From assembly GCA_004764695.1 (NCBI GenBank), contig SMSO01000031.1, positions 1,424,600 to 1,488,599 of the forward strand: 64,000 bases of DNA, written 5' to 3'. A program made the position numbers and the translations under genes. The DNA comes from Schizochytrium sp. TIO01 (taxonomy: Eukaryota; Sar; Bigyra; Thraustochytrida; Thraustochytriidae). Positions 12,335 through 56,376 of this stretch are shown here, one piece after another. Position 1 is the stretch's first letter. Each line of letters starts with the position of its first letter. Below the pieces are notes generated by a model. The model searched no databases. It was not told the DNA's origin and was given only the letters and a program-made list of their open reading frames with translations.

Positions 12335-13747
12335 TTAGGCCTGGTCCTTGGGAGCTGCTGGGGGCTCCTCTGCAGACTTTTTCTGCTGCTGAGCCTGGAG
12401 AACTGCCTCACCAGCAGCGATGCGATCTGCCTTTGCATTGCCTGGCCTCCGCTTGACCTTGAGGGAACGCATGTCAAGCTGCCGTGTAACGTCCTCGAGC
12501 GACGCATTTCCGCACGTGCACGCGGCAAAGAGGAAGTATGCGAGGTCTGCGACCTCGCGGGCAACATGCTCTGGGTCATTCTCCTCAATAGCCTCAATTA
12601 CCTCTTGTGCCTCCTCAATGAGCTTGTTACGCAGCAATGCCTTGTCCTCAAAAAGACGTTTTGTGTATGATCCTTCTGGGGCGTTAAGCTTGCGGGACTC
12701 AAGAGTGCGAAAGAGGTGGGGGATGCCACCGTCATAACCCCAGCATGTGCGGGTCTGTTGATGGCAAAATGCAGGAGGGTTTCCACGCTGGCGCACCTTG
12801 AACCTCATCGCGTCGGCATCACAGTCAAATGCGATAGACACAAGCTCCTGAAAGGCACCGCTTGTGTCGCCCTTGCGCCACAGACTCTGCCTGGATCTTG
12901 ACCAGTACACGCCGCGGCCACACGCCAACGAGGCAACCACAGACTGTTCGCTGGAGTACACGAGGCCAAGTGCCACGCCATTCTCATCGGTGACGACCGT
13001 CGCAAAGAGACCATCTGTACGGTCGGTGCGAAGGCACGCTACAAAAGACCTTGCCACGCAAAAGGCAGCCTCTGAGTCAGTATCTGTCGCAAGAGACCCT
13101 TCTGTTGGCATGGAAACGTTCTTAGACACAACGTTCACAGGAAAGTCTGTGGAGTGGAGTCCATGGAGCTTACCAACGAGCTGGTTGTTAATCTTCTGCG
13201 CCTCGCCTCCGGCCTCGATCTCGGGGACCTCTAATGTGATAGCAAGGCGTTTTCCCAAAAGCTGCCATGCCCTCTCTGCGACCTTGACGACTTCTTCAGA
13301 ATTTTTGGCCTCAGAAATAATTGAAACGCCCCCAACGCTGCCAGAAAGTTTGCTCAGGAGACCGTCGTCTTCAAGGGCCTTCTCGGAAAATCTGGCAACA
13401 AGACGTTCACGAGGAAGCTGCGAAGCAATGTCCTCGAGGTCGTCGAAAGAACCCTCAACAATGACTTGGACAGCGCCTTCGTTGAGCCATTGCGTCACTT
13501 CCTCAACGCTTGTAGCGGCGATGGGACCAACTTGGCAAGGGTACGAACACAAAGCTTTGCCCCACTTGCGAACAGCAGATTTCCAGAAGTCCTTCTCCTC
13601 AGGGGCACCCACACTTGGTGCGGAGACAGAGTCAAGTGAAGGGATGATGCGAAGGGGGCCGCACCAACTCAGGCGTTTGAGGAGATCAAACTTCTCAGAG
13701 GACGCCACAGCACCGCCCACGGCCACGTCCACAGCGGGAATGAGCAT
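12335..13747 (-). CDS. Histidine biosynthesis bifunctional PRA-CH/PRA-PH (HisI-HisE) with His4-like N-terminal domain
   Basis: This enzyme should catalyse two early steps of histidine synthesis: hydrolysis of phosphoribosyl-ATP and ring opening of phosphoribosyl-AMP. I take the ATG at 13747 (MLIPAVDVAVGG), giving 470 residues; the open frame extends upstream only from a TTG. Residues 1-~210 form an alpha/beta domain like the N-terminal part of fungal His4, itself HisA-like. Residues ~240-340 are the cyclohydrolase, with the metal-site pattern FDCDADA and CHQQTRTCW. Residues ~345-440 are the pyrophosphohydrolase, with LIEEAQEVIEAIEENDPEH and EVADLAYFL. The protein then stops after a short Lys/Ala/Pro tail, with no histidinol dehydrogenase domain, unlike fungal His4. 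It converges on IFT144 with no functional link. No plastid or mitochondrial presequence is required by this start. Confidence 0.9.
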   Translation of the reverse strand: MLIPAVDVAVGGAVASSEKFDLLKRLSWCGPLRIIPSLDSVSAPSVGAPEEKDFWKSAVRKWGKALCSYPCQVGPIAATSVEEVTQWLNEGAVQVIVEGSFDDLEDIASQLPRERLVARFSEKALEDDGLLSKLSGSVGGVSIISEAKNSEEVVKVAERAWQLLGKRLAITLEVPEIEAGGEAQKINNQLVGKLHGLHSTDFPVNVVSKNVSMPTEGSLATDTDSEAAFCVARSFVACLRTDRTDGLFATVVTDENGVALGLVYSSEQSVVASLACGRGVYWSRSRQSLWRKGDTSGAFQELVSIAFDCDADAMRFKVRQRGNPPAFCHQQTRTCWGYDGGIPHLFRTLESRKLNAPEGSYTKRLFEDKALLRNKLIEEAQEVIEAIEENDPEHVAREVADLAYFLFAACTCGNASLEDVTRQLDMRSLKVKRRPGNAKADRIAAGEAVLQAQQQKKSAEEPPAAPKDQA

Positions 13748-15415
13748 GATGCCAAGTCTTCTGCTGGTTGCAACGCAACTGCTTTGGCTGGTGCTAAAGC
13801 TCCTGTTATTACAGACTGACTGAAGTTGTGCGAGACCGCCTCGCGAAGATGCTGGAAGACTGCGATAGAGCAATGCAGGTTTACTCGCAAAGGTCTTGCT
13901 CTGATTGACTTGCTACTTATAACTGTAGTGTTACGAGTAGAAAGGTGAAGTTTTACTCTATTTGTACAGCAGCCATAAGAGCTTTTGCTTTTGTTCTATT
14001 GACGCAGGAGTGGCTTTAGTGGGAACAGAGACCTACGTCTACGTAGGGATAAGCGCCTTCGAGGCAGAATTGTTGCGATCGTTGTCTGTCGCAGGCCTTC
14101 ATTTCGTAAAGACCAAGCTCAAAAAATATGTCTCACCACACAAGCGCTGTAGCACATGGAGAGCAAACTTGGTGGTCCTCATAGGTGGAGCAGACCTACT
14201 CATACCCACTCATAGGTGGAGCAAACCCACACACTACAGCAGTCAGCTCTCAGAAGCAGCACTTGCAACCGACGCTGACTTGGTGTCTAAGCCGACAGTT
14301 GCATCCCTGAGCTCGGCAGAGAAAGCTGTGACCATGGTGTAGTTGGCAAGGACCTTCATTTGTAATCAGAAAACGAGCCAAAATTAGGGTCTTATCTCAT
14401 GCTGGAAAAGGGCCACTTGCTGAACAAAAGCGACTACGGTGCCGGTAACTAGCTCTTATTATAGAGAATAGCAAGCTCTTTGCGATGAAGGGGATCAAGG
14501 AAACAACTGTAGCATTTGTTTCCACTGCCACACGATATCAAGACTCTGCAACATTGCAAATACGAAAATATCGTGTAATACCTCGGGAGAAAACACACAC
14601 GGAAGATCCATGAGCATCTTCCTCAAGTATGCTCATTACTTGAGCGTCTCCACACACTTGAAGAATTGGTGGATTCAAATATGGTAACTTCTCCTCTATC
14701 TCTATTTTGATGGAAACCTGCATGGTGGCGTCAAAGATGGCAGTTGCTTGGTTTACCACCTAGGCGCAGTCAAAGTAGCAGAGTTTGGCGTGTCCAAATG
14801 CTTCTGTGAAAGTATATCAAGCAACTTGTAAGCCTTGCCCAGAAAGCAAGCTTTGGAGCCTTGCTGACAGGTTTATTCCCAAAGGTTTATTCTCTCTTCC
14901 TTTGCTATTTACATAGCTCTCATTGGTTACCAGCCTAGCCCGCTCTTCCGAGGCTCACATTTCTCTTTGGAGGGCGGCAGCCAAGATAGGATGATGTCAC
15001 AACAGGGCAGGTCACCAGACAAGCCTTTCTCTCAAGTTTGGCGGATTTGGCACGATCTTTGACTTTATTTATTTTTTATTTGTGTTCCAAAGACAACGGT
15101 TCATATAGCACATTGTTTCCTCATTTTGATTCATTATTTGCAGTAGGTAAATGCGAATTTGCCATTTTTAGGAGTAAAAAAATATCGCTGATGTATTTAC
15201 ACATGCTCCAAACACGACGAGAAGTCTAACTCAATGTGCAGAAAGCTTCGGAGAGAATACACGAGACGACGATGCTCTAGTCAAACTATCAGGGCCTGAG
15301 CTAGAGGAGCAGACAGACCAAGATTCGAGATATAGTGTCTGTTTGTTCCAGAAATGCCAAGTTCAATACGCACCTACAACCTTGAAAGTGTACAACTTTG
15401 TGATCGAAGCCTGTC

Positions 15416-20550: not shown

Positions 20551-23037
20551 ATGGAACGAAGTCAGGTGGCTCTGGTCGATTGCAGCATGCAAGATAATTT
20601 GGTGTGGCAAAGTCAAAATACAATTAACTTGAAGGCGGTAGTATACGGGGTCATACACTATATACACGTCACTGATGTCATGAGCTCGAATCGCAAATCC
20701 GAAGTACTTTCCGAGGACGAAAACCGAGACGAGAAGAAGGATGTTGCCAAGATCGTTGTTCTGACAGCTGTGTGGTGGATAGGAAGCTCTGTATTTTCAG
20801 CATCGTCGAAAAATGCTCTTTTAGCGACAGATCTTGAGTATGTGCCAATTATTGTTGGTGTCTCGTTTGTCACATTCATCCAGCTCTTTATTGCAGCAAT
20901 GCTTTCGCTTGCATTCCTCGCTGCCAAAGGCCAAGTGGAGAAGTGTTTCAACATCTTACGCCCATGCATAAAAATCGGAGTACTTCATGGTATTGGAAAC
21001 CAAGCAACCAATTTCTTGGTTGTAACTGCCGGTGTCAGCGGGGCTCTTACATACAAGGCTGCCGAGCCTCTCTTTGTCATGCTTGTTCTCCGTGTTCTCG
21101 CGCCCCAACGCTTCAGTCAGGAAGCCACCACCTTGGGGCTTTCTTTCATGGGCTTAGTCTGTATCGGAGTTGCGATTGCAAGTTACCACCCGCCCTTTGT
21201 GTATACGGTATTGCTCGCTGCAGCCGCTTGCAATCTCATGTTTGGTGCGCGAACTGTGTACATCAAGGAACTTCGTTCTTCTCAACAAAACGAAGGAATG
21301 TACAGTATGATTAATATTTTTTTCATGACGTGTATCATCGGGTGCCTCGTAACGGGTGTATTTTCGTTTATGGTCTTTATTGCTTTAGATTCTGGTGCAC
21401 AAATGGCTGCTGTTTCTGCAGCATGCTCGAAATCTGCACTGGTCTCTTCACTCTTCTACTTTGTGTACAATTTGGTATCGTTTCTTGCACTCGATTTAGT
21501 ATCAACACCTACGCATACACTTCTAAAATCAGGAAAAGGTCTAACGGTATTGGTAATGGCAGGATTTTTCCTCAAGGAAGAGTACAGCGTTCTACAGTGG
21601 TTCGGCCTTTATGTCGCAATGCTCGGCGTGACGCTTTTTTCCCATTCAAAGAGTACGAGTTCCACAGAGATAGGTGCATATGTGCGCGAAGCTGGTTTTC
21701 GAGTTCTCGCGCTTTCGCTTACTACAGTTACTTTTTTTGCAGTATCACGATTTCTTGACCAGGCGGACATGAGTACAATCACAGGGATGGATGCCTCCAC
21801 CGTCTATGTAGAACCAGAGAGTTCTTTGTTGAGTCCGGGTGGTGTCGACAATATGGCAGGGAAGCAATACAAGCCCGAGTCAAGCTACTTGACTCCTTAT
21901 GAACGTCGAGGTGACGCAGCAGCCTGGTTAACATGTCTGGGAGCAATCCAAGAGTTGCAATACGATTTACTCGAGGACATTTTCCAGATCAAAGAGGTTC
22001 GGGACAACCGCGTTCTCTACCTCGACCCAGCGCACCACACGAATTTTGGTGACAATGCCCTGGCCGAAGGAGTACACCAGTTTCTGGGCCGTATGGGGTA
22101 CGGATCTAGCACGACAACACAGTGCCGCTTGCATCAAGCTTCCAATGTCCTTCCTAATTGTAAAGAAGTCAATTTGGACAATCATTTTCTTGCGGTATGG
22201 CACCCTGGAGGAAATTTTGGCGACTTATGGTACACTAACCAAGTCAAAAGAATAGAGAGCTTTGAGTACCTTCTAGCTCGCAATATGACTGTGGTAAGCT
22301 TTCCCCAAAGCTACGAATATGGAAACAAGGAAACTGAAAAGAGCGATGCTTTGAAACTACAGGGATACATCGAAAAGACAGTTGGGCTGGAGAGAGCCAA
22401 GGAAAAAGTCATCCTCTTGTGGCGATCGCAACGAAGTCTAGACAAGGCATCTCAAGCATTCCCCTTCGTGCAGCACCGTCTCGTCCCTGACATGGCATTC
22501 GCTCTTCGCCCGATGTTACCTCGAAGAAAGTTTCTAGGCGGGCCGAAGGAGCAAGTGGATATTCTTTTCATCTGGCGCACTGACAAAGAAGGCCTCAATA
22601 GGAAGCAACGAAACTCTAATTGGGTAAACGATGCGCTCAGCACTATGGAAGGTGGAGAGTCGATAACATTTAAGATCGTAGACTGGCCTGATACTAATAA
22701 GTTCGCTCCTGCGAGTGGAAGCGGCCATATCAAAAATGCGTGCGACAAGGATTTTGAACGAACATTTTCATCTAACCAAGCTTTGATCTCGCATGGCAAA
22801 GTCGTAATTTCGGACCGATTGCATGGTACTATCGTGTCCTTGCTGCATCGGATTCCTCATATTGCGCTGGAAAATACATATGGCAAGGTACGAGCAACAC
22901 GTGACGCTGCCTTTGCTGCGCATGAAGCATGTCGTGACGATGATGCAATGAACTATCGTTACACGGATGACATGTTAGAGGCCATGAGGCTTGCAATACA
23001 TTTCCTTAAGTACAACGAATTCCCAGCAGTTGTTTAG
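20551..23037 (+). CDS. Fusion protein: TPT/PEP-phosphate-translocator-like transporter + polysaccharide pyruvyl transferase
   Basis: One uninterrupted frame of 828 residues joins two proteins. Residues ~65-370 are a ten-helix drug/metabolite-superfamily transporter of the triose-phosphate/nucleotide-sugar type: HGIGNQATNFLVVTAGVSG with YKAAEPLFVMLVLRVL, then THTLLKSGKGLTVLVMAGFF and GLYVAMLGVTLFS. A separate hydrophobic helix follows at ~383-402 (FRVLALSLTTVTFFAVSRFL). Residues ~480-800 are a polysaccharide pyruvyl transferase domain: NFGDNALAEGVHQFLGRMGY, WHPGGNFGDLW, VVSFPQS and VISDRLHGTIVSLLHRIPHI. That family adds pyruvate ketals from phosphoenolpyruvate to sugars. The extra helix would place the catalytic part in the lumen if the transporter ends are cytosolic (inference). 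The ATG at 20551 gives the longest frame; Met44 at 20680 (MSSNRKSEV) may be the real start, since the intervening 43 residues look unlike either family. Confidence 0.88.
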   Translation: MERSQVALVDCSMQDNLVWQSQNTINLKAVVYGVIHYIHVTDVMSSNRKSEVLSEDENRDEKKDVAKIVVLTAVWWIGSSVFSASSKNALLATDLEYVPIIVGVSFVTFIQLFIAAMLSLAFLAAKGQVEKCFNILRPCIKIGVLHGIGNQATNFLVVTAGVSGALTYKAAEPLFVMLVLRVLAPQRFSQEATTLGLSFMGLVCIGVAIASYHPPFVYTVLLAAAACNLMFGARTVYIKELRSSQQNEGMYSMINIFFMTCIIGCLVTGVFSFMVFIALDSGAQMAAVSAACSKSALVSSLFYFVYNLVSFLALDLVSTPTHTLLKSGKGLTVLVMAGFFLKEEYSVLQWFGLYVAMLGVTLFSHSKSTSSTEIGAYVREAGFRVLALSLTTVTFFAVSRFLDQADMSTITGMDASTVYVEPESSLLSPGGVDNMAGKQYKPESSYLTPYERRGDAAAWLTCLGAIQELQYDLLEDIFQIKEVRDNRVLYLDPAHHTNFGDNALAEGVHQFLGRMGYGSSTTTQCRLHQASNVLPNCKEVNLDNHFLAVWHPGGNFGDLWYTNQVKRIESFEYLLARNMTVVSFPQSYEYGNKETEKSDALKLQGYIEKTVGLERAKEKVILLWRSQRSLDKASQAFPFVQHRLVPDMAFALRPMLPRRKFLGGPKEQVDILFIWRTDKEGLNRKQRNSNWVNDALSTMEGGESITFKIVDWPDTNKFAPASGSGHIKNACDKDFERTFSSNQALISHGKVVISDRLHGTIVSLLHRIPHIALENTYGKVRATRDAAFAAHEACRDDDAMNYRYTDDMLEAMRLAIHFLKYNEFPAVV

Positions 23038-50188: not shown

Positions 50189-53100
50189 TTAGAGGGCGTT
50201 GGTGGGCTCGTAGACGAACTCAGCATCCTCGACCTCAATGCTGACACGCGGGTCGTTGCGGATGGCATTGAGACGGCGGAGGTAGCAGGCACCGCGAAGG
50301 ATCTGCAAGTTGATCTGCACGACGTCCGGGTACTCACCAGAGACGGCCGGGTCAAGGTAGGAGCCCTTGATGAAGTCGTTGAAGGCTCCAATGGCAGGGC
50401 CACACCAGACCTGGTAGTCCATGACGCGTCCAGCCTCACCGGTGTTGGCCCAGCGAGAGGCAAGACCAAGGTACCAGCGGAAGCAGAGAGACATCTTGAG
50501 CTTGGGGTCACGCTCGGCACGGGTGATCTTCTCCGGGTTGTGGAGGCGGTTGATGTAGAAGTCGGAGGTCTCAGCCCAGACATCAGCAAGAGGGCACTGG
50601 AAGATGCGCTTCTCAACACGCTCGAGCTCTGTGGCAGGCATGGACTCGAAGGAGTCGTACTTGCAGAAGAGCTCGTAGAGCTTGTTAGCCCTGGACGGGA
50701 ACATGGTTCCCTTCTTGAGGACCTGGAGCTTGACGCCCTCCTCGAACATGTCAGCAGCGGGAGCCATGCAGACGTCAGAGTAGGTGGCCATGCAGAGCTG
50801 CTTGCGGACATTGTCGCAGGTGCCGGACTGCTTGGCGACCTGGTTGACAGTGCCGGTAACAAGGAAGGCAGCACCCATAGCGAGAGCAGCGGCAGCGGCC
50901 TGGGGGCATCCAACACCACCACCAGCTCCAACGCGCACGCGGAGGTGAGCGGGGTAGCCGCACTCCTTGTGGAGGCGGTTGCGGAGGTTGATGATAAGGG
51001 GGAGGATGACGTGGATGGGGCGGTTGTCGGTGTGGCCACCAGAGTCGGCCTCGACGGCGATATCGTCGGCGACGGGGACGAGCTTGGCAAGCTCAGCCTG
51101 CTCCTTGGTAATCTCACCAGACTGGATGAGCTTGTCGAGGAGGTTCTGCGGGGCAGGGCGGATGAACATCTCAGCGAGCTCGGTACGGGAGACCTTACCG
51201 ATGATGCGGTTCTTGATGTTAATGGAGCCATCAGCGTTACGGGAAAGACCAGCAGCACGGTAGCGGACGACTTGCGGGGTCAAGGTCATGAAGGCGGAGG
51301 CCTCGACGACAGTGACGCCCTTCTCGAGGAAGAGGTCAACGTTGCCCTTCTCAAGGTTGCTATCGAAGGGGGAGTGGATGAGGTTGACGGCGAAGGGGCC
51401 GTTCGGGAGCTCAGCCTGGATCTTCTCAACAGCGGCACGGACAATGTGCATGGGGAGACCACCAGCACCGAAGGAACCGAGGATCTTACGCTTACCAGTG
51501 GCAATCACAAGGTCAGCAGAGGCAATACCCTTGGCCATGGCACCGGTGTAAAGAGGAGCCACAACACCGTAGGTCTTCATGAAGCCTTCATCACCGAGGT
51601 CACTGAGGCTGCAAGCCTGCACAATGGTGGCCTGGCCACCAGCCACATCGGCGTGCTTCTTGACCTGGCCGTTGCTGGAGGAGATGTAGAGAGGCTTCTC
51701 AACGTCAAGAAGCTCAGCCTTGAGCTGCTTGAGGGTGATGGTCTGGGCAGGGCCAGATGCAGCAACCGGAGCAGGGGCGGCAGCCGGAGCAGCAACAGCA
51801 GCAGCAGCAGGGGCGGCGCCAGCAACAATGCGAACACGGATGTTGCTGACGTTGTAGACGCGGAGGCCATCAGCCCAGAGGTTACCATTGGCAACGATGT
51901 CGACGACGCCGTCGTGGGCCTCGATGGAGACAATGTGGGCCTCGGAGTCCATGAACTTGGAGGTGGGGGTGAGCTGACCACGGTACTTCCAGGAGATCTT
52001 GCCCGGAGCATGAGCGAAGGTCGGGTTGGTGATGCCGTACTTGCCGGCGAGGTCCTGCTTGACAGCGATGGACTCGACGAGCTGGAACATAGACTCCACA
52101 CCGAGCGAGCCGGGCATGACGGAGTCGAACCAGAAGTGGCACGAGAAGAACCAGTCCTTGGGGTTCACCTGCTTGCGGCCATGACCGTAGCCAAGACCGG
52201 CGGAGCCACCGGCGACCACAAGGTCGATGGTGTCAAGGTACTGGCACTGGTTCCAGCGGCGAGTGAGCTGAGCACCCTTGGGGGCGTTGGCGTAGAGCTG
52301 GGTGCGACCGGCACCGTTGGGGGTAACGTCGTAGGTGAGGACCTGGGCGGAAGGCACCTTGGACTCAATGTGCCAGGGCTGGGTGCGGCGACCGTTGTCG
52401 AGACCAGTCTGGGAGATGAAGACCTCAGGGACGAACCAGCCGAAGGAGGTGGTACCCTTGTAGAAGACTACACCATCAACAGAGAGCTCGAAGCTGAAGC
52501 GGTGGACACCCATGTCTCCGAGCATGCTGTAGCCGGTACACTTGGTGAGGTTGTGGATGGTCTTGCCGCGGAGGTCAATATCAGAGCGAACCATCTCGGC
52601 GTTGGCGTCAAGGTTGCGGAAGAGAATGTCCTTCTTCTCCATGGTGAGCGGGGCCTTGAGCACAGAGGTGAGGACACCAGAGGTCTGGAGGGCGATCTCC
52701 ATGAGGATGGAGTACGGCATGTGGCCGTCGTTACAAGATCCCTGGAAGAACCAGGCGTCGATGGGGCAGTCGAACTCGCCAACCATGGTTCCCTTGGACG
52801 GGTTGCAGTCCACGTTCTTCCACTGGACCCACTCCATGTCAGAAACGGAGACCACACGAGTCACAAGAGCAAGGTCCCATGCAGGGCTGCGGCTGGTGTT
52901 GGAGTCATCGAACTTGGCGAACTCAGGGCCGAGGCAGAGGCTGACCTTGCCGGCCATGAACTCAGCCATGTTGTACCACGAGAGCGGCATCTCGCCGGGC
53001 ACGTGGTTGTTGTCGTTCTTGTTGCCGGGGAACGGGGTGAAGGTGATGGGACGGGGAGGGTAGGCCGAGGGAGAGAACGAGGGCGTGGGGTTGCCAGCGA

Positions 53101-54574
53101 TCTTGGCCATCGGGTGCCAGGTCATCTGGTTAGGGGCAAGAGCATCGCCCTTGAGGATGTGCTCAGGGATGGCCTCAACAGCCGGGGCGCAAAGGTCCTT
53201 GTTGAGAGCGAGGGGCTTCTCGGGAGCGACAACGGCAGGGCCAGAGCGCTTCTGGAGCTTGAGGGCAATACCCTTGAAGTCGACGACGATCTTCTTGTTG
53301 AGGTCGCCCTTGCCGTACTCGTGGAGGTTGGCAAGGTCGAAAGTCTGGCCCTTCTCGAAGTCAATGTCGAGAATGTTGACATCGGCAATGGCGTACGGGT
53401 CACCAGCCTCGTCGTAGCCCATCTCCTTGATCTCCATGACGTAGACGAGCTTACCCTTGTGCGGGGAGATCTGGCCACGGCAGCGGACCTTGTTGGGGTG
53501 GCCGTTGACGGGGCGGAAGTCGAAGGGACCGGTCTTAAGGTGGAGGCCGAGCCAGAGCATGTACATCTTGAGGAGCTGGCTGCAGCCGTCAGACACGAGG
53601 GATCCAGCCATGACCTGGTCTCCGACGAAGTGGCACGGGAAGTACCAGTGGTCGCGCTCGAGGATCTTCTCACCAACGAGGAGACCAAGGCCGTAGGGGC
53701 CACCGGTGTAGTCAATCTTGGTGACGCGGTCAATCATGAGCATCTTACGGGCGCAGAGTTTGTAGTTGATCTGGTCCATGCCGTTCTCGGGGCCGAAAAC
53801 CTTGGTCCAGTTCTTGTCCACGAGGGACTGCATCTCAGTCTCGTTGAGAACGGTCTTGTTAAGACGCGGGGCAATGGCGTACGGGGTGATGTCCTGCTTC
53901 TTGGTCTTCTCGCGGGCGAGGAGATCAGCGCGGGTAAAGACGACACCCTTGCCGGCGGCGAGCTCCTCGTTGGTGAAGAAACCGGCACAGCCGTCGCGCA
54001 TCTCGATGAGGAGACGGCCGTTGACGTAGCAGTCGTACTCGAAGAAGAACATGGAGATGTCACCGTCGAGACGCTTGGCGAAGCCGGTCACGCGGATGTC
54101 GTACTCCAGGGTCTCGCCCTCCTGGGCAACACCGTAGAAGGTGAGGGTGGTGTTGAGCAGACGGTAGACGCGGTCGCTCTTGTTCTGGAAGTCAATACCC
54201 ATGTAGGAGATGAGCATGAGATCACACTGACCACTCTCGACGAGCACGGCCCAGGGGCAGTCACCACCCTCAGAGAGCTCACCGTTGACGGGGAGGTCGT
54301 ACTCAGTGACCATGCGGGCACCGACGCGGTAGTTGTTGACCTCGGCGTCCATGAGGGTGACGCGGGTGACGAGGAGGTACTCGCGGGCGGGGAGACGAAC
54401 GCGACGCTTGTACTGGTCGATCTGGCTGAATTCGGGGCCGAAGACCTTGCTGATGTCACCCTCGGCGAACTCAAGGAGCTCGTCATAGTCGAAAACGACG
54501 TTCTTGCCGCTGGTGAGCTCCTCCTTGGTCATCTCCCAGCATGGTTTCTTGTTGGTCTTCACGCGAGTGGCCAT
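50189..54574 (-). CDS. PUFA synthase subunit C (DH-DH-ER), polyketide-synthase-like
   Basis: This is one of three subunits of the thraustochytrid PUFA synthase that makes DHA and DPA from malonyl units without aerobic desaturases. From ATG 54574 (CAACCATGGCC context; MATRVKTNKKPCWEMTKEEL) it has 1461 residues, close to the ~1500 usual for Schizochytrium OrfC. Residues ~1-450 are a FabA-like dehydratase/isomerase with CHFVGDQVMAGS near 315. Residues ~560-960 are a second one, with CHFWFDSVMPGS near 813. An Ala/Pro linker follows (AAPAAAPAPVAAS), then residues ~1020-1461 are a PfaD-type FMN enoyl reductase: GSFGAGGLPMHIVRA, VEADSGGHTDNRP (~1175), GAGGGVGCPQ (~1217), ending YEPTNAL. It stands alone, as expected since orfA/orfB lie elsewhere. 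Third positions are almost all C/G, consistent with high expression. An upstream in-frame ATG (55114) is discussed in the findings. Confidence 0.97.
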   Translation of the reverse strand: MATRVKTNKKPCWEMTKEELTSGKNVVFDYDELLEFAEGDISKVFGPEFSQIDQYKRRVRLPAREYLLVTRVTLMDAEVNNYRVGARMVTEYDLPVNGELSEGGDCPWAVLVESGQCDLMLISYMGIDFQNKSDRVYRLLNTTLTFYGVAQEGETLEYDIRVTGFAKRLDGDISMFFFEYDCYVNGRLLIEMRDGCAGFFTNEELAAGKGVVFTRADLLAREKTKKQDITPYAIAPRLNKTVLNETEMQSLVDKNWTKVFGPENGMDQINYKLCARKMLMIDRVTKIDYTGGPYGLGLLVGEKILERDHWYFPCHFVGDQVMAGSLVSDGCSQLLKMYMLWLGLHLKTGPFDFRPVNGHPNKVRCRGQISPHKGKLVYVMEIKEMGYDEAGDPYAIADVNILDIDFEKGQTFDLANLHEYGKGDLNKKIVVDFKGIALKLQKRSGPAVVAPEKPLALNKDLCAPAVEAIPEHILKGDALAPNQMTWHPMAKIAGNPTPSFSPSAYPPRPITFTPFPGNKNDNNHVPGEMPLSWYNMAEFMAGKVSLCLGPEFAKFDDSNTSRSPAWDLALVTRVVSVSDMEWVQWKNVDCNPSKGTMVGEFDCPIDAWFFQGSCNDGHMPYSILMEIALQTSGVLTSVLKAPLTMEKKDILFRNLDANAEMVRSDIDLRGKTIHNLTKCTGYSMLGDMGVHRFSFELSVDGVVFYKGTTSFGWFVPEVFISQTGLDNGRRTQPWHIESKVPSAQVLTYDVTPNGAGRTQLYANAPKGAQLTRRWNQCQYLDTIDLVVAGGSAGLGYGHGRKQVNPKDWFFSCHFWFDSVMPGSLGVESMFQLVESIAVKQDLAGKYGITNPTFAHAPGKISWKYRGQLTPTSKFMDSEAHIVSIEAHDGVVDIVANGNLWADGLRVYNVSNIRVRIVAGAAPAAAAVAAPAAAPAPVAASGPAQTITLKQLKAELLDVEKPLYISSSNGQVKKHADVAGGQATIVQACSLSDLGDEGFMKTYGVVAPLYTGAMAKGIASADLVIATGKRKILGSFGAGGLPMHIVRAAVEKIQAELPNGPFAVNLIHSPFDSNLEKGNVDLFLEKGVTVVEASAFMTLTPQVVRYRAAGLSRNADGSINIKNRIIGKVSRTELAEMFIRPAPQNLLDKLIQSGEITKEQAELAKLVPVADDIAVEADSGGHTDNRPIHVILPLIINLRNRLHKECGYPAHLRVRVGAGGGVGCPQAAAAALAMGAAFLVTGTVNQVAKQSGTCDNVRKQLCMATYSDVCMAPAADMFEEGVKLQVLKKGTMFPSRANKLYELFCKYDSFESMPATELERVEKRIFQCPLADVWAETSDFYINRLHNPEKITRAERDPKLKMSLCFRWYLGLASRWANTGEAGRVMDYQVWCGPAIGAFNDFIKGSYLDPAVSGEYPDVVQINLQILRGACYLRRLNAIRNDPRVSIEVEDAEFVYEPTNAL

Positions 54575-55017
54575 GGTTGCAAGTTGCGACTCGATAATTT
54601 CTCTTCTAGTCGTAGCTTTTTCTGGACCTGTTTGATTATCTGCTAGAGCTGTTGCTGCTTCTAGACTTGTGGAGTTCTCGAACCTAGTTGTATCTGAAGG
54701 TGGTTCTTGTGTTGTGGCGAGCAGTTGTAAGTTTTCTGCTCTTGCGTCTGTGGATCTAAGAATTGCAGTGGTAGCGCTCTCGGCTAGTCCTGCAACTTCT
54801 GTTGTTCCTGACAACAAGCGGACCTCGTCCTCGTCCACCTGGTCGGGCTCTTGTTCTTGCTGCGGCTCGACGGGGTCGAGTTCGAGGTTTGCTGTCGCCT
54901 CCGCCTGCTCCACTGCTACTGCCTCCGTTCCCCTCTTACAACAACTACTTCTTCTTCTGCCGCTGTCGCTGCTTCTTCCTCCTTCTCCTTTTTCAACTAA
55001 ACAACTTTTTAAATCTC

Positions 55018-55085
55018 CTTTTTCTTTTTCTTTTTCTTTTTCTTTTTCTTTTTCTTTTTCTTTTTCTTTTTCTTTTTCTTTCTCT
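55018..55085. repeat. TTTTTC hexamer array (GAAAAA on PUFA gene strand)
   Basis: About eleven TTTTTC units, grading into shorter TCTTTC units, 450-510 bases upstream of the PUFA-synthase ATG. On the gene strand it is a purine tract that stays in frame with the gene. Confidence 0.95.
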
Positions 55086-55796
55086 TTCTCTTTCTCTTTT
55101 CTTTTCTTTCTCATTCTCTTTTTTTTTCTTTCTCACTTTCAACTAAACTTTCTTTCCGTAAGTTTTCTTTCAAATTCAAACTCAAATTCAACCCCTCGTT
55201 CTCCACATTCAAATTCAAATTCAAACCAAAGTTCAAGCCCAAATTCACATTCTCTTGTTTTCCCGCCGCGAGTCCTTTCTCCATCTTTCCCGCCTGCCCG
55301 TCCTCCTCTTCTTCTTCAATTTCTTCTTCTTCTTCTATTTCTTCTTCTCTGCTACCAATCCGCGGCCCTTCTACCATCTCCTCTGCAGACGGCTTCGACT
55401 CACGTCCGAGGTCCCTGCTGCTGCACCGCGCAGCAGCACCTAGGTCGCCCCGCGCATCGCAAAGCACGCCTTCTCCCTCCCTCTCAGCACCTCCAAGCAG
55501 CGCCTCCCGGGAACCCGTCCCCTCTCTCGCCCTGCCCGTGCATCGCCAAGCACCGTACAGAGCCCGCGCCAGAGCCCCTATCACAAGCATGCAAAACCCT
55601 CCCAAACACGCCACCACCAGAGCGCCCGTCAGGGGGGACGCGCCCCGTGCGTCCAGTGGGCTCAGCTTGCCTGCGCGAGTTGTCTCCCTCCCTCTCTCTC
55701 TGCCTCTCTCTTGTGTGGATTTACTCGCCGCTCTTACGTCGGCGCTTCGCTTAGTAAGTCTTATCTCCAAACCCAGCTATTCCAATATTCCAAAAT

Positions 55797-55890
55797 TCCA
55801 AAATTCAAATATTCAAATATTCAAATATTCAAATATTCAAACTTTCGAAATTCAAATATTCAGATATTCAAATATTCAGATACTCAACGA
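55797..55890. repeat. ATTCAAAT-type array
   Basis: Imperfect 8-base ATTCAAAT units with ATTCAGAT variants, related to the AATTCAAA hexamer arrays. Confidence 0.85.
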
Positions 55891-56376
55891 AGTTCGAAGT
55901 TCAAATATTCAAATGCCCAGGTACTAGGCAGAGCCTACCTACTCCTGCAAGTACGTACTCTCGCGAGCAAATCTATTTTTGAGCAAAGCAAAGACCCGCT
56001 TTGCCCAATGCTAACGCCGTTTGACTGACCACGCAAAGAATAAATGAGTCAATGAATCAATCAGTGATCAATCAGTGCCCTATAAAGCGCTCGAAGGACT
56101 CGAATAATCGAATGACAGTTGGTCGATCGCTTTCTCTCGCGACGCGACGCGAGGCGAGCGAGCCGCCAGCCAGCTGGCCTCAGCTGCTGCTGCTGCTCCT
56201 GCTGCCCGGGCTGAGTGCAGCAGCAGCGGGGCCTGCTGCTGCTGCTGCTGTGCCGACGCAGTGCGAGCGAGCGCTGGCACTCCGAAGAACACTGCTGCGA
56301 GTTCGAGTTGTTATTGGTTGCGGGACTGACTGAGAAACAGAGTGACTGCGAAGAAGAGTTCTCTCCGCTATCATCT

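Follow-up and report, generated by a model that had tools for sequence, protein, structure and literature searches.

One open frame of the window, by which we mean the whole 64,000-nucleotide stretch of DNA analysed here, joins a transporter of the TPT family to a polysaccharide pyruvyltransferase, and the sequence evidence indicates that this fusion is real and unusual, and very unlikely to be an artefact. Our reading of its product, to which we give a probability of roughly 0.58, is a single endomembrane protein, probably of the Golgi, whose TPT half would import phosphoenolpyruvate (PEP) into the lumen, most likely against phosphate, and whose Pvg1-like half would pyruvylate a glycan there.

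As the earlier note had claimed, transporter and pyruvyltransferase lie in one frame, and both domains of the encoded protein (P0001; P0002 is the window's own copy) score above their curated Pfam cut-offs: TPT at residues 67-364 (E 3.2e-20, 73.1 bits against a cut-off of 30, profile positions 2-291 of 291) and PS_pyruv_trans (PF04230) at residues 498-775 (E 8.7e-15, 55.8 bits against 25.3, profile positions 1-278 of 280). The motifs that had been quoted for a complete-looking transferase domain start at residues 498 (NFGDNA), 553 (GGNFGDLW) and 754 (SDRLHG). The ten-helix, TPT/DMT-type architecture proposed for the transporter also holds, with one helix assigned by hand: a hydropathy scan at a threshold of 1.2 gave 10 segments, the extra helix included, and missed the third transporter helix, which was then drawn in. 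The extra hydrophobic helix itself, claimed at about residues 383-402, was found at 381-399, the most hydrophobic stretch between transporter and enzyme (mean Kyte-Doolittle 1.54). Positions are collected in Table 1.

Table 1. Positions of the features discussed, numbered along the window unless another contig is given
Feature	Residues	Position	Strand	Basis or remark
Fusion gene		20551..23037	+	Single open frame of 828 aa without internal stop
TPT-family transporter half, ten helices	65-364	20743..21642	+	Pfam TPT, GsGPT 5y78, hydropathy (third helix by hand)
Eleventh helix	381-399	21691..21747	+	Top hydrophobic stretch of linker; predicted to turn enzyme across membrane
Linker / enzyme neck	400-485	21748..22005	+	Alignment to P0003
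Polysaccharide pyruvyltransferase half	486-795	22006..22935	+	Pfam PS_pyruv_trans, Pvg1 5ax7
Places of His185 and Thr188 of GsGPT	N150-T153	20998..21009	+	GsGPT alignment
Place of phosphate-site Lys204 of GsGPT	K169	21055..21057	+	GsGPT alignment, offset of 89 counted
Places of Lys362 and Arg363 of GsGPT	K329-G330	21535..21540	+	Lys kept, Arg lost
Place of Pvg1 D106	D501	22051..22053	+	Asp in 36/38 rows, Ser in P0003, gap in one fragment
Sole N-glycosylation sequon of P0001 (N578-M-T), enzyme half	N578	22282..22284	+	Conserved in P0003
Place of Pvg1 R217	R625	22423..22425	+	38/38 rows
Place of Pvg1 R337	R756	22816..22818	+	38/38 rows
Second fusion gene		G000:C33:3564583-3568683 (L014:1584-5684)		TPT-like ten-helix part, eleventh helix, PF04230 stretch, then C-terminal stretch

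By protein search, the fusion layout was seen only in P0001 and P0003, the latter from a second eukaryote (sources include ncbi and eukprot), among the best candidates scored. The whole-protein search (8000 best candidates scored) matched only P0002 and P0003. With the transporter half nothing was found at E ≤ 1e-3 among 8000 candidates scored, and the enzyme half (1769 candidates of whole-protein length scored) matched P0002, P0004 and P0005, with P0003 absent. Viral contigs gave no match, and the enzyme half run against prokaryote genomes gave 13 pattern-matching stretches, none of them a relative. No description of a transporter-pyruvyltransferase fusion was found in the literature searched.

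The transporter half and its candidate cargo

Among solved structures the transporter half is closest to GsGPT, a sugar-phosphate translocator of the plastid type (5y78; E 1e-6, residues 75-368), which ranks ahead of SLC35B1 and the CMP-sialate transporters. According to passages of PMC11661312, the phosphate site of the plant translocator consists of Lys204, Lys362 and Arg363. Two of these three residues are kept in P0001, and the third, Arg363, is replaced by Gly330; the same place is Gly in P0003 too, where the K-G motif and its neighbourhood are kept. N150 and T153 stand at the places of His185 and Thr188, which presumably have a functional role in GsGPT, and Asn at the His185 place is a feature of PEP/phosphate translocators. 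On the phosphate/PEP translocator model TIGR00817, P0001 scores 58.6 bits, far below the curated cut-off of 317.9. Three of the four own paralogues scanned outscore it (L003 with 133, L004 with 96.2 and L005 with 92.9 bits; L010 has 32.2), and L003 is also below the cut-off.

A carrier tree of 15 rows was built from own-genome carriers, with L009 and L012 left out and no named outside sequences, together with the P0003 half. In this tree the transporter halves of P0001 and P0003 join with support of 100/99, and they group with L003 and the long-branched membrane part of the second fusion gene at 89/93, which falls short of the 95/80 that the tool marks with a star. The pair L008 and L011, which we take to be VRG4-like, falls outside the L003 group, and UAA and CMP-sialate-type members lie further off (96/94); the P0001 half is grouped with none of L008/L011, L013/L099 or L112-L114. 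The earlier note had held that firm grouping with nucleotide-sugar transporters would remove the PEP idea, and within this own-genome tree no such grouping was found. Its interpretation is supported in part. The fusion, the intact-looking transferase, the eleventh helix and the predicted lumenal orientation are borne out; for PEP as a putative cargo, the L003 grouping and the kept K169 and K329 are in favour, and Gly330 in place of Arg363 and the low TIGR00817 score are against.

The loss of this arginine, and a TIGR00817 score lower than those of L003, L004 and L005, would also suit a real fusion whose transporter half carries other cargo. Such cargo could be a nucleotide sugar (e.g. UDP-galactose) or some other phosphate ester; either would supply the acceptor side of this glycan pathway, and PEP would enter through a different carrier, for instance one of the L003 type. 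Moreover, a carrier of wider role could explain why P0003 has a conserved transporter half next to a transferase half that lacks catalytic residues. However, the P0001 half sits in the tree with L003 and apart from the VRG4-like, UAA and CMP-sialate-type members, and the places of Lys204 and Lys362 are kept, so that we regard other cargo as unlikely. From the nature of the fusion partner and the Pet1/Pvg1 precedent, we infer that PEP is the substrate of the transporter half.

It is improbable that the TPT half transports nothing and only serves, as a dead or structural part, to anchor a pyruvyltransferase in the Golgi membrane. Pvg1 is described in part of PMC4872226 as a type II protein with an N-terminal transmembrane anchor, so another membrane part could serve the same end. 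A mere anchor would nevertheless be expected to drift, whereas the transporter half is better conserved between P0001 and P0003 than the transferase (alignment A3: 96/182 identical in the second transporter part and 73/289 in the transferase, with 9/35 around helix 11), and the K-G motif is kept.

The pyruvyltransferase half and its side of the membrane

The enzyme half finds its best solved relative in fission-yeast Pvg1 (5ax7; E 4e-14, residues 487-780), and the profile of alignment A3 reached the same structure at E 7e-71 in a PDB profile search. This alignment has 38 rows, namely P0001, P0003, P0004, P0005 and 34 of 80 bacterial loci, the 80 being the best taken from at least 480 relatives among at least 593 stretches found with alignment A2. 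Its profile matched 43 PDB sequences, many of them E2 acyltransferases, because the P0003 row includes a DLST gene.

For Pvg1, passages of PMC4872226 propose D106, R217 and R337 as catalytic; the D106A mutant was almost inactive, and both Arg mutants could not be expressed. When positions are shifted by a constant 53, as counted along the alignment, all three proposed residues are kept in P0001 (Table 1). The search patterns included GGNFGD and PD[MT]AFA, and these motifs were consequently selected for in the bacterial loci; D501, R625 and R756 lie outside the patterns. H758 is His in 37 of the 38 rows and Gly in P0003. We predict from sequence that the P0001 half is a Pvg1-type pyruvyltransferase, which would pass pyruvyl from PEP to a sugar.

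P0003 differs in this half. The counterparts of D501, Q586, R676, D678 and H758 are lost, which indicates that an active enzyme half was not kept in that lineage, and the P0003 branch is very long (7.29 changes per column). The P0003-lineage enzyme half is probably inactive or changed, with the transporter half kept. If the same held for the lineage studied here, the transferase half would not be a sugar ketal-pyruvyltransferase, its activity being altered or lost. Against this, P0001 retains the three Pvg1 residues and SDRLHG, with R625 and R756 invariant across the alignment, and we consider such a change in P0001 very improbable. The active Pvg1-type enzyme is the reading followed below.

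The earlier note had suggested that the extra helix flips this enzyme into the lumen, and the charges of the loops predict the same. Lys and Arg residues number 8 in the cytosolic and 2 in the lumenal loops of P0001, and the N-terminus has 7 Lys and Arg against 11 Asp and Glu; this pattern makes the loop before helix 11 cytosolic and hence the enzyme lumenal. In addition, the counterpart of the N578 sequon is the only sequon of P0003 up to residue 705. Against this orientation, helix 11 has only a weakly hydrophobic counterpart in P0003 (0.95). Cys462, Cys525 and Cys537 of P0001 are conserved in P0003 as well, but cysteines of the transporter half are also conserved, and Cys525 occurs in the bacterial P0004 too, so the cysteines say little about the compartment. 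Charge, hydropathy and one conserved sequon are thus what predicts a lumenal enzyme half.

One gene and a second PF04230 gene

For a run of 120 codons of this base composition, the chance of an uninterrupted, in-frame reading across the junction is about 0.0005. A single gapped alignment (34%) matches P0003 to residues 189-794 of P0001, through the junction, and in the linker, residues 406-485, 18 of 55 aligned residues are identical, with 25 gaps. P0003 lacks 70 of the 75 residues that would match P0001 114-188. Its gene model is a chimera that continues as a DLST gene from about residue 700 (1-700 and 701-1099); the counterpart of this DLST part in the studied genome is 83% identical and lies on a different contig. 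Since this model is chimeric, P0003 backs the fusion at the protein level and not at the transcript level. In the genome searched (G000; 64.06 Mb, 37 contigs), a PF04230 profile search gave 2 candidates, both scored and both matches, and no free-standing pyruvyltransferase.

The second match is also a fusion gene, with a frame of 1366 codons that opens with GTG and has its first ATG at codon 13. By profile comparison its membrane part is a TPT homologue: with a TPT profile of 7 rows it scored 94% over 278 columns, none of 15 shuffles exceeded 0.21%, and eight further DMT carriers from the genome gave 12-98% on the same test. Its loops have 10 Lys and Arg on the cytosolic and 4 on the lumenal side. 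Compared with P0001 this membrane part is very diverged, yet it has Lys-Arg at the 362/363 places; its PF04230 match is limited to profile positions 123-276, the C-terminal half, and the similarity of its transferase part to the Pvg1-type profile is weak (27% over 65 columns). No paralogue of this gene besides itself was found in the genome. The C-terminal stretch has no Pfam match, and two weak PDB matches to retroviral integrase (E 0.47) were taken as chance. By eye, this stretch recalls a GT32-like sugar transferase.

A survey for transporter-enzyme fusions by frame length covered at least 11 TPT, 15 UAA, 3 Nuc_sug_transp and 20 EamA matches, with overlapping counts. Besides the studied gene, frames above 500 aa were of 789, 634 and 575 aa, and no further transporter-enzyme fusion was present among the matches listed. 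The 575-aa frame is by eye a carrier alone. The other two belong to carriers with long low-complexity C-terminal tails, at L123:2915-5158 (+; 747 aa) and L124:1038-2930 (-; 630 aa), which by eye we take to be NIPA-like. None of the four profiles picked up the second fusion gene through its membrane part, so such a survey could miss other fusions as well.

The open junction, P0003, the second PF04230 gene and the lack of a free-standing pyruvyltransferase in the genome are four lines that agree on a real fusion, very unlikely to be an artefact. That two adjacent genes are read as one through a cryptic intron or an assembly error is scarcely credible, for although the homologue's own gene model is chimeric with a DLST gene, the frame is open across the junction, the linker is partly aligned in P0003 and the second gene has the same layout.

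The window has 22 frames of at least 220 aa, of which the fusion gene and ten others were scanned with Pfam. Matches among the scanned neighbours include WDR19/IFT, histone deacetylase, DEAD helicase, RCC1, MORN, TPR and PRA-CH/PRA-PH, and no glycan-related domain was found in these ten of the 22 frames. The frame at 12338-13873 (-) has the PRA-CH and PRA-PH domains of histidine biosynthesis in one chain, preceded by about 300 residues that match nothing in Pfam. At 50192-55114 (-), 27 kb from the fusion gene, one gene encodes FabA-like domains and a PfaD-type reductase, and its best solved match is subunit C of a polyunsaturated fatty acid (PUFA) synthase (9sdd). This architecture is characteristic of thraustochytrids, and the gene content of the window thus points to a thraustochytrid, probably a marine one, in line with a labyrinthulomycete origin. 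A long antisense frame at 50540-54646 (+) overlaps this gene and has no Pfam match at E 0.001, and beside the gene, at 55778-55914, lies a tandem array of about 17 copies of the 8-base unit TATTCAAA.

Proposed mechanism and its meaning

According to our model, the TPT-family antiporter would move PEP from the cytosol to the lumen, with phosphate as the most likely counter-substrate, and the eleventh helix would hang the Pvg1-like domain in the lumen. This domain would transfer pyruvyl from PEP to a glycan, probably to galactose, as a ketal, and the phosphate released by pyruvylation would exit through the same carrier. Because pyruvylation frees phosphate in the lumen, a joined PEP/Pi antiporter would both feed the enzyme and clear its product, and coupling of PEP import to pyruvylation in one chain is plausible. 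Of this model, our results support the enzyme family and the fusion. PEP as substrate, antiport with Pi and the acceptor sugar are suggested by the fusion partner and the Pet1/Pvg1 precedent, and the compartment too is a proposal.

In S. pombe, according to passages of PMC4872226, the two activities are split between Pet1p/Pet2p for PEP transport and Pvg1p. The fusion resembles this system in enzyme family and in its kept proposed catalytic residues, and the pairing of PEP import with lumenal pyruvylation would be a further likeness. The yeast proteins are separate, and Pvg1 sits on an N-terminal transmembrane domain, whereas in the fusion a single chain combines the enzyme with eleven membrane helices; Pet1/Pet2 are compared here by function and not by sequence. 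With the TPT family (plastid TPT/PPT/GPT, GsGPT 5y78), P0001 has in common a whole-length profile match, ten helices and the kept Lys204 and Lys362; it departs from the family in the Gly for Arg363, in a C-terminal eleventh helix with an enzyme, and in its TIGR00817 score (58.6/317.9 bits). Bacterial EpsI/CsaB-type pyruvyltransferases have PF04230 in common with it, and P0004 is 35% identical to P0001 over 245 aa. The 34 aligned bacterial loci have the active-site residues of P0001, save one fragment without the D501 stretch. Unlike P0001, the bacterial P0004 has 492 aa and PF04230 as its sole Pfam match.

The layout is common to both PF04230 genes found in the genome, and on this ground a wider class may be proposed. 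Thraustochytrids may have one-chain 'import-and-transfer' machines, made of a PEP/phosphate antiporter, a flipping helix and a lumenal pyruvyltransferase, in which PEP would be handed over at the membrane and phosphate would leave by the same carrier; the enzyme half of the P0003 lineage would then be a pseudoenzyme on a conserved carrier. This generalization is tentative, and we put it at clearly less than even odds.

To our knowledge, donor-substrate carriers for lumenal glycan-modifying enzymes mostly exist as proteins in their own right. Where carrier and enzyme are naturally fused, the partner would hint at what the carrier transports, and coupling or channelling across an endomembrane could be tested directly. 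The fusion could also serve as a tool for pyruvylating glycans in other hosts. According to passages of a 2019 review (PMC6801904), information on pyruvylated glycoconjugates of eukaryotes is scarce, and none of the terms 'fusion', 'thraustochytr' and 'protist' occurs in its main text. The fusion described here would show ketal-pyruvylation machinery in stramenopiles.
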